This document shows, in pieces, positions 45,703 through 61,486 of a stretch of 64,000 bases of DNA. The stretch lies in contig JAAYOB010000002.1 of NCBI GenBank assembly GCA_012520575.1, forward strand, positions 15,269 through 79,268, given 5' to 3'. The notes below the pieces were generated by a model, which was not told the origin of the DNA, searched no databases, and saw nothing but the letters and a program-made list of their open reading frames with translations. The first letter of the stretch is position 1; every line of letters starts with the position of its first letter. Source of the DNA: Candidatus Stramentimicrobium fermentans (GTDB taxonomy: Bacteria > Atribacterota > Phoenicimicrobiia > Phoenicimicrobiales > Stramentimicrobiaceae). The position numbers were made by a program, and so were the translations under genes.

Positions 45703-46035
45703 ATGAAAAAAAGTTGTAAAAAGCAATACATTTTAGTAACCCATATTATCAAAAAAGAAAACGAACAATATGTAGCTACTTGCCCAGAATTTGATGTATC
45801 TTCTTTTGGCGATACTGTGGAAGAAGCTAATAATAGTTTGAGAGAGGCAATTTTGTTATATTTAGAAGGTATAGAAAGCTTAAATATTCTAGATCAAATT
45901 TTCAAAGAAAAAGCCATTGTAACTTATGAAAGAAAACCTAAATCTGTAACCAGTGATTATAGATTTGCAGATGATCTGGATGGCCAGCCTTTTGTTACTA
46001 AAAAGTCTCTAAATGTTGCTTTATGCAATTCTTAA
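45703..46035 (+). CDS. hicB: HicB-like antitoxin
   Basis: A 110-residue HicB-fold protein. The partial RNase H-like core YVATCPEFDVSSFGDTVEEANNSLREAILLYLEGI is typical. The ~40-residue C-terminal part has no obvious ribbon-helix-helix or HTH, so autoregulation may be reduced. AAGGAGG lies before the ATG. The partner hicA immediately downstream is broken, leaving an orphan antitoxin. Confidence 0.85.
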   Translation: MKKSCKKQYILVTHIIKKENEQYVATCPEFDVSSFGDTVEEANNSLREAILLYLEGIESLNILDQIFKEKAIVTYERKPKSVTSDYRFADDLDGQPFVTKKSLNVALCNS

Positions 46036-46039
46036 TAAA

Positions 46040-46269
46040 ATGTAAAATTTCCCCATAATAACTGGTGAAGATTTAATAAGTAGACTATGCAAAGCTGGTT
46101 ACATAGTATTAAGAACGAAAAGTTCTCACACTTTCTTGACTTTGCAGGCCACCCTGAAGTGTCTACTGTAGTAAAAAATACCTCTAAAGATATTCCCCAA
46201 GGAACATTGGCTTCTATTAGAAAACAATTAAGATTAACTCGAGAAAAATTTATCGAGATTATTTCTTAA
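46040..46269 (+). pseudogene. hicA: Broken HicA-like mRNA interferase
   Basis: Reading from the ATG at 46040, codon 2 is TAA. The frame continues as PIITGEDLISRLCKAGYIVLR then TKSSHTFL, including the conserved Ser-His of the HicA active site. Near 46140 the frame shifts and continues as KDIPQGTLASIRKQLRLTREKF to a stop at 46267-46269. The combination is a whole HicA toxin with a nonsense codon and a frameshift. It lies 4 bp after hicB. An ORF starting at 46087 is only the shifted piece. Confidence 0.75.
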
Positions 46270-46493: not shown

Positions 46494-49025
46494 ATGCAGG
46501 CAATAAATAAAAATTTTTTGCAATTTCTAGAGGGAGTGGACAAAAGGTTTTCAATTCCGGTCTTTCAAAGAAATTATGATTGGCAAAGAGAGCATTGCGA
46601 ACAATTGTTTAATGATTTACTGGACATAATAAAATTTAATTTCCGCAGCCACTTTTTAGGGTCACTTGTGTATGTATTTGATGAATCAAAACCAGGTTTT
46701 GAATTGTTAATTATTGATGGGCAACAGAGAATCGCAACCTTATCTATTTTACTTTTAGCGCTGCATAATCTATTAGAAAACAATGAGATTCAATCTCGCT
46801 CTGAATCATTAAGCGAACAGATTAGAGATACTTACTTGATTGACAAATATGCTCAAGAAGGTAAGAAAATAAAGTTCGAACCGGTCAAAGAGGATAATGA
46901 AGCCTATCTGAAATTGTTTAAAAATAATAGCGAAGAGTTCATTAAAAATTCTAATATTACTATCAATTATCAATATTTTGTTGATAGGATTAAAAGAAGC
47001 AATTTGTTAGCTGATGATTTATTTGAGGCAATTAAGAAACTAACTATAGTAGATATTAGGTTAGATAGTAATCATGATGATCCACAGTTAATATTCGAAA
47101 GTCTGAATTCTACTGGTTTAAATTTAACCCAGTCCGATTTAGTTAGGAATTTTATCCTAATGGGGAAGAATAAGAGCGAACAGAAAAGATTGCATGAAGA
47201 TTATTGGCTCATTATAGAAAAAAATACAGGAGATCAGGTCGATTCCTTCGTAAGGGATTACCTTACTCTCAAAGAAAGAATTATTCCTAACAAAAATAAA
47301 ATCTACATTAGCTTTAAGAAGCATGTAAAAAAAGAATATTCCAATGATGATATCGAAAGTTTACTAAAAGAGTTAAAAAGATATTCCCAATACTACCAAA
47401 GAATTATTTTCCCATTAGATGATAAATCCAAGATAAATGTTGTCTTAAAAAGAATTAATAAATTAGATATTACTGTATCTTATCCCTTTTTATTGGAAGT
47501 TTTTAGCTATCACGATGACAAGGTTATAGATGATGAAACACTTGTTAATATTTTAGATACCATAGTATCTTTTGCTTTTAGAAGACTAATATGTAATGTA
47601 CCAACCAATGCCCTAAATAAGATGTTTGCTACTATCGGAAGAGATATCCAAAAATATCCTGACTTCAAAGTAAATTATTTTGAAATATTCAAGCATATTT
47701 TGATTAATAAGAAATACAGTCAAAGATTTCCAACAGATGAAGAGTTTTCAGAAATACTGGTCACTCGGGATATCTATAATCTGCAAAGTAAAAATAAATT
47801 ACATCTATTAGAGAGGTTAGAGAATTATGACAATAAGGAAAGAGTCAAAGTAGAAGAACTGCTGAATGAAGGGGATTTAAATATTGAACACATTATGCCC
47901 CAAACACTGACTCCGAGTTGGAAGGCTGCCTTGGGAGACAACTGGGATGAAATATATAATAAATATTTGAACACTCTTGGCAATTTGACACTTACCGGAT
48001 ACAACACCAAGATGAGCAATAAGCCTTTTTTAGAGAAAAGAGATATGGAAAAAGGGTATGAAGATAGCAGCCTTGCTCTCAATAAATATCTCCGCACCCT
48101 AGAAAATTGGAATGAGGAGACAATTATTGAAAGGGCAAATCAACTAACAAGCACTGCTTTAAAAATCTGGACATACCCCAAAACGGAATATAAGGGACAG
48201 ATAGAAGAATCAAATAAATTTATCTTATCCGATGACCACGATTTTACCGGAGACAAAATAGCGTCCTTTACCCTTTTAGGACAAGACTTTTCAGTAAACA
48301 GTTGGAGGGATTTTTATATCAAACTAGCGCAAAATTTAATCGAAATTAACCCTAATATTTTTGCTGATTTTTTAAAGGATAAGAGGTTTATTGAAGAGAG
48401 AAAAATAATTTCTGCTCAAGCCGAATCTTTGAGCAATCCTTTTGAAATTGCAGAAGGTATTTTTTTAGAAACACATTTGAGTGCCCAGTCTATTGTTAAT
48501 AATGCTTTGTTGATTTTAAGTAAATATGAAATTGATGAAGATGGAGTAGCAGTAATCTTGAGTAATAAGAATAGCCAAGAACTAGCAGATTTCCAAAAGA
48601 AAAGAATAAAATTTTGGGGAGGATTATTAGAAATAAATAAAGATAGAATAAAATATTTCAAGAAAAATACAAGTTTTATACATTATGACCTCTATAGCGG
48701 AACCGGGATAACAAGGTGTTCTTACTTTTATCGTATTAAACAAAAAAGCGGTACGGTGGGATTGTCTATTGATACGTATGACAAAGAGAAAAATGAGCAT
48801 ATTTACAACAAACTATTAGAAAAGAAAAACGAAATAGAAAACGCCTTTGGAGAAAAACTTGAATGGTTTGACGGTGAAAAGACTCAGTTTAAGTCTATCT
48901 ATAAAGAATATAAATATACTGGCCTTAAAAATGAAGACAAATGGCCGGCTTTACAGCAAGACATGGCTGATGGCATGGCAAGATTTACTGAAATATTAGA
49001 TGAATACCTTGCAGAATTTAAATAA
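46494..49025 (+). CDS. DUF262-DUF1524-DUF4268 fusion, GmrSD-like nuclease
   Basis: An 843-residue protein. The N-terminal DUF262 domain has IPVFQRNYDW and the ParB-like DGQQR motif (75-79), expected to bind and hydrolyse nucleotides. A middle DUF1524 HNH-type nuclease has NIEHIMPQTLTPSW (about 463-476) and LGNLTLTGYN. The C-terminal ~140 residues (RIKFWGGLLEIN...WFDGEKTQFKSIYKEY) resemble DUF4268. GmrSD type IV restriction systems combine DUF262 and DUF1524 to attack modified phage DNA; defence here is inference. AGGAGGGG precedes the ATG, and a RING-like microprotein follows 34 bp later. Confidence 0.85.
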   Translation: MQAINKNFLQFLEGVDKRFSIPVFQRNYDWQREHCEQLFNDLLDIIKFNFRSHFLGSLVYVFDESKPGFELLIIDGQQRIATLSILLLALHNLLENNEIQSRSESLSEQIRDTYLIDKYAQEGKKIKFEPVKEDNEAYLKLFKNNSEEFIKNSNITINYQYFVDRIKRSNLLADDLFEAIKKLTIVDIRLDSNHDDPQLIFESLNSTGLNLTQSDLVRNFILMGKNKSEQKRLHEDYWLIIEKNTGDQVDSFVRDYLTLKERIIPNKNKIYISFKKHVKKEYSNDDIESLLKELKRYSQYYQRIIFPLDDKSKINVVLKRINKLDITVSYPFLLEVFSYHDDKVIDDETLVNILDTIVSFAFRRLICNVPTNALNKMFATIGRDIQKYPDFKVNYFEIFKHILINKKYSQRFPTDEEFSEILVTRDIYNLQSKNKLHLLERLENYDNKERVKVEELLNEGDLNIEHIMPQTLTPSWKAALGDNWDEIYNKYLNTLGNLTLTGYNTKMSNKPFLEKRDMEKGYEDSSLALNKYLRTLENWNEETIIERANQLTSTALKIWTYPKTEYKGQIEESNKFILSDDHDFTGDKIASFTLLGQDFSVNSWRDFYIKLAQNLIEINPNIFADFLKDKRFIEERKIISAQAESLSNPFEIAEGIFLETHLSAQSIVNNALLILSKYEIDEDGVAVILSNKNSQELADFQKKRIKFWGGLLEINKDRIKYFKKNTSFIHYDLYSGTGITRCSYFYRIKQKSGTVGLSIDTYDKEKNEHIYNKLLEKKNEIENAFGEKLEWFDGEKTQFKSIYKEYKYTGLKNEDKWPALQQDMADGMARFTEILDEYLAEFK

Positions 49026-49059
49026 ACTATAAAAAATTTTATAAATGGAGGAAACTAAA

Positions 49060-49230
49060 ATGCCAAACAGAATATGCGACTCATGTGGAAAACTAAAAGA
49101 TGTGCAGGGTGGTAAAACCTGTGAAAACGGTCACTTCATCTGCAAGGATTGCGTCTATGCCGGTATAGGGTTTATGGGATTTGGAAGTGTCTTGACCACC
49201 TGTCCTATTTGCAAAAAACCATTGAGATAA
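49060..49230 (+). CDS. RING-finger-like C3HC4 zinc microprotein
   Basis: A 56-residue protein. Counting from MPNRIC, metal ligands are Cys6, Cys9, Cys21, His25, Cys28, Cys31, Cys48 and Cys51. The spacing C-X2-C-X11-C-X3-H-X2-C-X2-C-X16-C-X2-C fits the RING (C3HC4) consensus, including CPIC at the end. A longer frame opens 5 codons earlier, but GGAGG lies between the two ATGs, so 49060 is preferred. It lies 34 bp after the DUF262 protein, probably on the same message. Simple double zinc ribbons are the alternative explanation. Confidence 0.7.
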   Translation: MPNRICDSCGKLKDVQGGKTCENGHFICKDCVYAGIGFMGFGSVLTTCPICKKPLR

Positions 49231-49579
49231 TTCCAAAATAAACTGCAGTATTATGTGTGAGAGTCAGATTTTGAATTATCAGTTTTGCGATATTTCAAAT
49301 CCTGATTCCATAAGAACTTTGTGCAAACCTTGTATATAATAGAAGATTTTTTGTTCTGCAATATAGAGAAGTTTGCCCTGTCCCTATCATGAGAATTATT
49401 TTGTTCAGATTTTTATCTGAGGCATTAATACTTTTTCATATATATTGTTGATGAAGCGATTCGATTATTTGTCAGGCAGTCAACAAAAATGTATACTATC
49501 TATTGCAGATACAGCAGAAGTTACTTTTTCTTTATTGTACCAGCAAATAATATTAATAATATTTAAAAAAGGAATTTAT
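49231..49579. other. Intergenic region upstream of the GntR gene
   Basis: No gene seen. The frame of the GntR gene opens at 49445, but the protein starts at 49580. A TATAAT at 49335-49340 may be a -10 element without an evident -35. Confidence 0.4.
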
Positions 49580-61368: not shown

Positions 61369-61486
61369 TTCTTATTAAGAGTGGCTAAGGGACGGACCCT
61401 GTGAAGCCCGGCAACCTGTCATTACAGAGATTATGATGCTGGTGCCAATTCCCGCGGAATGATATTCAATTCCGAGAGATGAGAAA
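61369..61486 (+). ncRNA. SAM-I (S box) riboswitch aptamer
   Basis: All core SAM-I segments appear in order: CTTATTAAGAG (P1, K-turn side), AGGGACGGACCC, the GAAGCCCGGCAACC block, GGTGCCAATTCC, and the closing GAGAGATGAGAA that pairs with the start as P1. Such RNAs sense S-adenosylmethionine and normally switch off Met/SAM genes. No Met gene follows; the next element is another leader and an AOR pseudogene. Confidence 0.92.

Follow-up and report, generated by a model that had tools for sequence, protein, structure and literature searches.

The stretch of DNA analysed here (the window; 64,000 nt, to whose positions all plain coordinates refer) carries a restriction-type gene and, directly behind it, a very small gene whose product has the zinc ligands of a RING finger. 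The preliminary description had taken the two as a pair and had raised the possibility of ubiquitin-like chemistry. The locus thus poses the question of what the microprotein is and whether it belongs with its neighbour. The features concerned are as follows.

46494-49025, + strand: GmrSD-like protein, single chain, 843 aa, intact (Pfam, PADLOC, sequence)
49047-49051, + strand: ribosome-binding site GGAGG, 8 nt before the ATG at 49060 (sequence)
49060-49230 including the stop codon (49060-49227 without it), + strand: RING-like (C3HC4) microprotein, 56 aa (sequence, family profile, predicted fold)
49383-49464, + strand: dispersed repeat of about 80 bp just downstream of the microprotein gene, common to same-genus genomes

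The restriction gene and the microprotein gene

In the 843-aa protein, Pfam identifies GmrSD_N (DUF262) at residues 11-221 (E = 2.4e-34), GmrSD_C (DUF1524) at residues 413-552 (E = 1.9e-26) and DUF4268 at residues 704-839 (E = 1.5e-20). The single chain passes the cut-offs for both GmrSD domains (119.6 bits versus 33.2 for GmrSD_N and 93 versus 23 for GmrSD_C), keeps the motifs DGQQR and EHIMPQ...NLTLT, and is matched in PADLOC as Orf5 / HEC-06 / mREase_IV. Because the combination of DUF262, DUF1524 and DUF4268 has already been described among the GmrSD family type IV restriction enzymes (PMC4619093), the restriction protein is, judged by its domains, of a known architecture, and only the adjoining microprotein is unusual. 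The protein would presumably work alone, as a type IV, modification-dependent restriction enzyme.

Exactly 34 bp separate the end of this gene (49025) from the start of the microprotein gene (49060) on the same strand. A mechanically called ORF opens earlier, at 49045, and would yield 61 aa; this start is unlikely and the 56-aa start is favoured, because the family alignment shows a conserved Met there, at which the homologues also start. The eight ligands follow the pattern C6-x2-C9-x11-C21-x3-H25-x2-C28-x2-C31-x16-C48-x2-C51, which lies within the RING consensus. To this extent the preliminary description was correct: both ORFs, the spacing between them and the RING-type arrangement of eight ligands in a 56-residue protein were all confirmed.

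Across 31 aligned family sequences, ligands 2 to 7 are invariant. Cys occupies the first position in 29, the two exceptions being a Tyr and a truncated sequence, and the eighth position in 28, the other 3 having Asp; the loop between the sixth and seventh ligands varies from 6 to 29 residues. Given this invariance of six ligands, the pattern, as read from this alignment, is not a product of chance. Nucleotide differences from a homologue with 82% identity number 8, 6 and 37 at codon positions 1, 2 and 3; their concentration at third positions indicates that selection acts on the microprotein. By these measures of conservation, it is a real, conserved protein-coding gene.

Members and spread of the microprotein family

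A first search of 61 genomes returned no copy besides that of the window, and a wider genome sample contained clear homologues at 82, 71 and 49% identity, the closest of them (82%) in a Caldiserica assembly. The distribution is sparse, with 3 clear members in 385 genomes. When the family profile (A1) was run on a one-genome-per-species collection and on viral contigs, it detected 29 homologous loci in species genomes and one relative on a viral contig, where the single microprotein sequence had given no match. Plasmid and phage collections held no match to the microprotein, and the plasmids also none to the family consensus. Members are stand-alone proteins of about 45-68 aa.

The genomes with the 29 loci are labelled as some 20 bacterial and archaeal groups, including Caldiserica, Dehalococcoidia, Cloacimonadota, Acidobacteria, Bacillota, Bacteroidetes, Proteobacteria, Planctomycetes (Scalindua), Calditrichota, Poribacteria, Akkermansia and several archaea. 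Because most of the loci are MAG contigs, some of these labels may reflect faulty binning; the copy labelled 'Heimdallarchaeota', for example, is 81% identical to a Blastocatellia copy. Searches of further genomes from the window's own family and phylum yielded no microprotein (E 0.001), which points to a sporadic, horizontally moved gene. PHROGs and NCBIfam had no model that fits the family and PADLOC none for the microprotein, and the family appears to be unnamed in Pfam, NCBIfam, PHROGs and PADLOC.

Predicted fold

The window microprotein falls below the curated Pfam cut-offs for Sina_RING (18.6 bits versus 29.3) and zf-RING_5 (14.9 versus 27.9), and weak matches to these models recur in 29 and 25 of the 31 members, respectively. 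Against PDB sequences, nearly all matches of the family profile are RING E3s, among them RNF4 (2.6e-5) and BRE1 (0.0019); in the BRE1 match, each of the eight ligands is aligned. The zinc-free AlphaFold2 models had a pLDDT of 80 and a pTM of 0.58 for the window microprotein, and 84.5 and 0.61 for a shorter family member. The best 50 Foldseek rows were overwhelmingly RING domains, with TM scores of 0.58 and 0.61 to SIAH1 and all E-values above 0.001. In VIA-align, RING domains, ZZ domains and a single chain from an archaeal ribosome had Z values of 3 to 5.

The profile, Pfam, AlphaFold2 and Foldseek results together point, with moderate confidence, to a RING-like (cross-brace) domain and not to two zinc ribbons. 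Two sequential ribbons of the LIM type were represented by just isolated, low VIA-align rows; the family profile, AlphaFold2 and Foldseek favour the RING-like arrangement. The structure prediction that the preliminary description had proposed as a check on a cross-brace leans towards one, but because no Foldseek E-value is as low as 0.001 and no VIA-align Z exceeds 5, the fold may instead be another binuclear treble clef.

That the microprotein is instead a small zinc protein of treble-clef-like fold, associated with nucleic acid or with the ribosome, is in our estimate highly unlikely. The top VIA-align row is indeed a chain from an archaeal 30S subunit, aligned over 47 residues at Z 5.0 and followed by ZZ domains, and 26 of 31 members have R or K at the conserved, basic C-terminus. 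However, this is one low-Z row tied with ZZ and RING rows, and the sequence profile favours RING.

Likeness to eukaryotic and prokaryotic RING domains

With the eukaryotic C3HC4 RING, nearest in its SIAH/Sina, RNF4 and BRE1 forms, the microprotein shares the order and spacing of the eight ligands, the profile likeness and the predicted fold. It differs in being a stand-alone prokaryotic protein with variable E2-contact positions, and canonical E2 is missing from nearly all of its hosts. Among bacterial RING-like domains are the Prok-RING_2 and Prok-RING_4 families, reportedly the work of Burroughs, Iyer and Aravind in 2011. Prok-RING_4 is weakly matched by 17 of the 31 members and Prok-RING_2 by 4, but the window microprotein lies far under the curated cut-off and has no multidomain context here.

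RING E3 ligases have known E2-contact and linchpin positions. In the family, the contact position in C1-x-[ILV]-C2 is a hydrophobic Val in just 9 of 31 members; after C8, at the linchpin position, 11 have K, 12 have G and none has Arg. A search for the canonical E2 family (UQ_con, PF00179) detected no member in the window's own genome or in 28 of the 29 other carrier genomes. Given the missing canonical E2 and the variable contact residues, a conventional E3 role is, from sequence, unlikely. That the microprotein might be the E3 ligase of a divergent bacterial ubiquitin-like system would agree with the profile likeness to SIAH, RNF4 and BRE1 and with a CP[IL]C/D motif whose Pro follows C7 in 26 of 31 members; the outcome of the UQ_con search and the variation at the contact and linchpin positions nevertheless make it very improbable. 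What survives of the preliminary description on this point is its fallback, a metal-stabilised adaptor, though not as a partner of GmrSD.

Linkage to GmrSD

The GmrSD profile drew on 16 GmrSD loci, that of the window and 15 others, which represent 11 genomes and partly overlap. It found no match in the 29 other microprotein genome loci, in the viral contig or in one further homologous locus (L004, from an additional genome). Conversely, the microprotein profile had no match in the 15 GmrSD homologous loci. Genes with GmrSD_N are present in 15 of the 29 carrier genomes, and the number expected by chance in the microprotein loci is ~0.07; finding none therefore excludes a regular partnership but not a rare one. 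As the fetched loci are mostly short MAG contigs, a more distant linkage may have escaped notice. The two microproteins nearest in sequence (82% and 77% identity) adjoin unrelated genes, and the genomes of the same family keep the upstream symporter region and have no DNA match to the GmrSD-microprotein segment.

An alternative is that the two genes form a dedicated defence system, in which the microprotein would serve the GmrSD-DUF4268 protein as subunit, activator or antitoxin-like regulator. The 34-bp spacing, the shared strand and the good ribosome-binding site would suit such a pair, as would the restriction-modification genes near two relatives (L014 and L016, below). We regard it as unlikely, since GmrSD is absent from every other microprotein locus examined, the microprotein is absent beside the 15 other GmrSD genes, and its closest relatives have different neighbours. 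The pairing with a DUF262 protein proposed in the preliminary description recurred neither at the 29 further genome loci nor at the 15 homologous GmrSD loci, and the recurrent linkage that it had looked to, and whose failure it had named as counting against the pair, was found nowhere within the loci fetched. The pairing is not supported, and the GmrSD neighbourhood of the microprotein is probably one of chance. Because it was not seen elsewhere in the loci examined, the link to GmrSD carries no further weight.

Signs of mobility around the segment

Two same-genus copies of the dispersed repeat lie ~60 bp from the start MLTM[SG]QKKAVTREL, a transposase-like N-terminus, and the repeat at 49383-49464 is therefore probably the remnant of an insertion-sequence end. 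This suggests that the GmrSD-microprotein segment lies by an insertion-sequence scar. Three other features of the window were observed.

45703-46035, + strand: HicB-like ORF, under the Pfam cut-off
46087-46269, + strand: short HicA-like ORF, under the Pfam cut-off
61369-61485, + strand: SAM riboswitch (RF00162), 83.7 bits

DNA related to the HicB/HicA-like region occurs at other places in same-family genomes, which suggests a mobile, partly degraded toxin-antitoxin module. A promoter scan of the window performed no better than on shuffled sequences.

Gene neighbourhoods of the relatives

The genes found near the microprotein at other loci included the following.

L014: DNA methylase with HNH
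L016: N6 methylase
L020 and L031: vWA and Tubulin_2
L026: SIR2-like
L034: VapE/primase
L035: TerB
L038: Card1-like CARF fragment
L039: HSP70-vWA
L040: DnaJ and vWA
L042: MZB and NERD-helicase proteins

These neighbourhoods are best read, from their gene content, as varied and often mobile or conflict-related. Genes for vWA proteins occur at 4 of 29 loci versus 0.65 expected (P ~0.004, which is optimistic, as the test was chosen post hoc), and in a comparison likewise chosen post hoc, 2 of only 8 Tubulin_2 matches in 30 genomes fall in microprotein loci. The two vWA and Tubulin_2 gene pairs (L031:169-5599 and L020:2-5410), from Poribacteria and Bacillota assemblies, are homologous. GTPase-centric and vWA conflict systems with tubulin and HSP70 parts have been described (Kaur et al. 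2020, PMC7159879), and some relatives of the microprotein adjoin vWA, tubulin-like, HSP70 or DnaJ genes of this kind; the window, however, has no such genes, and 'RING finger' occurs in the text of that paper only within its reference list.

The microprotein could accordingly be a shared small component of vWA, chaperone and tubulin-like conflict modules that sometimes occurs apart from them. The vWA excess, the two Tubulin_2 loci and the HSP70-vWA, DnaJ and TerB neighbours speak for this explanation. The enrichment was picked after looking, most loci, the window included, lack such genes, and VWA_2 is not matched anywhere in the window's genome; we consider the explanation rather doubtful.

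A protein family of 104-114 aa adjoins the microprotein in three loci (L026:9461-9805, L029:756-1100 and L033:10376-10690) and is unmatched in Pfam, the scan having covered L026 and L033. It is absent from the window, and look-alikes at L016 and L039 did not match its profile.

Discussion

By family profile and predicted fold, the microprotein is RING-like, and its relatives are sparse, spread over many phyla as labelled, and set in changing neighbourhoods. Our preferred reading, which we hold to be somewhat better than an even bet, is that it is an orphan binuclear zinc domain of the RING-like kind, belonging to a prokaryotic family as yet unnamed, and a horizontally moving small adaptor that stands by GmrSD by chance. 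Two zinc ions would be held in a cross-brace, and the protein, carried on mobile and defence-type islands, would serve as a small regulator or as an adaptor between other proteins. It probably shares a transcript with the GmrSD gene only through having landed beside it. A metal-stabilised adaptor is thus the most likely role, rather than that of a dedicated GmrSD partner. There is a smallish chance that the family is a ubiquitin-free mobile adaptor common to several conflict systems (vWA, tubulin-like and chaperone modules, restriction islands) and serves whichever system adjoins it, here the GmrSD-DUF4268 nuclease.

The particular GmrSD neighbourhood is ordinary, and the uncatalogued microprotein family is of modest interest in itself. 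Prokaryotic RING-like domains bear on the origin of the ubiquitin system, and a scattered single-domain RING-like family without a canonical E2 would cleanly test the fold as a purely zinc-stabilised interaction module.
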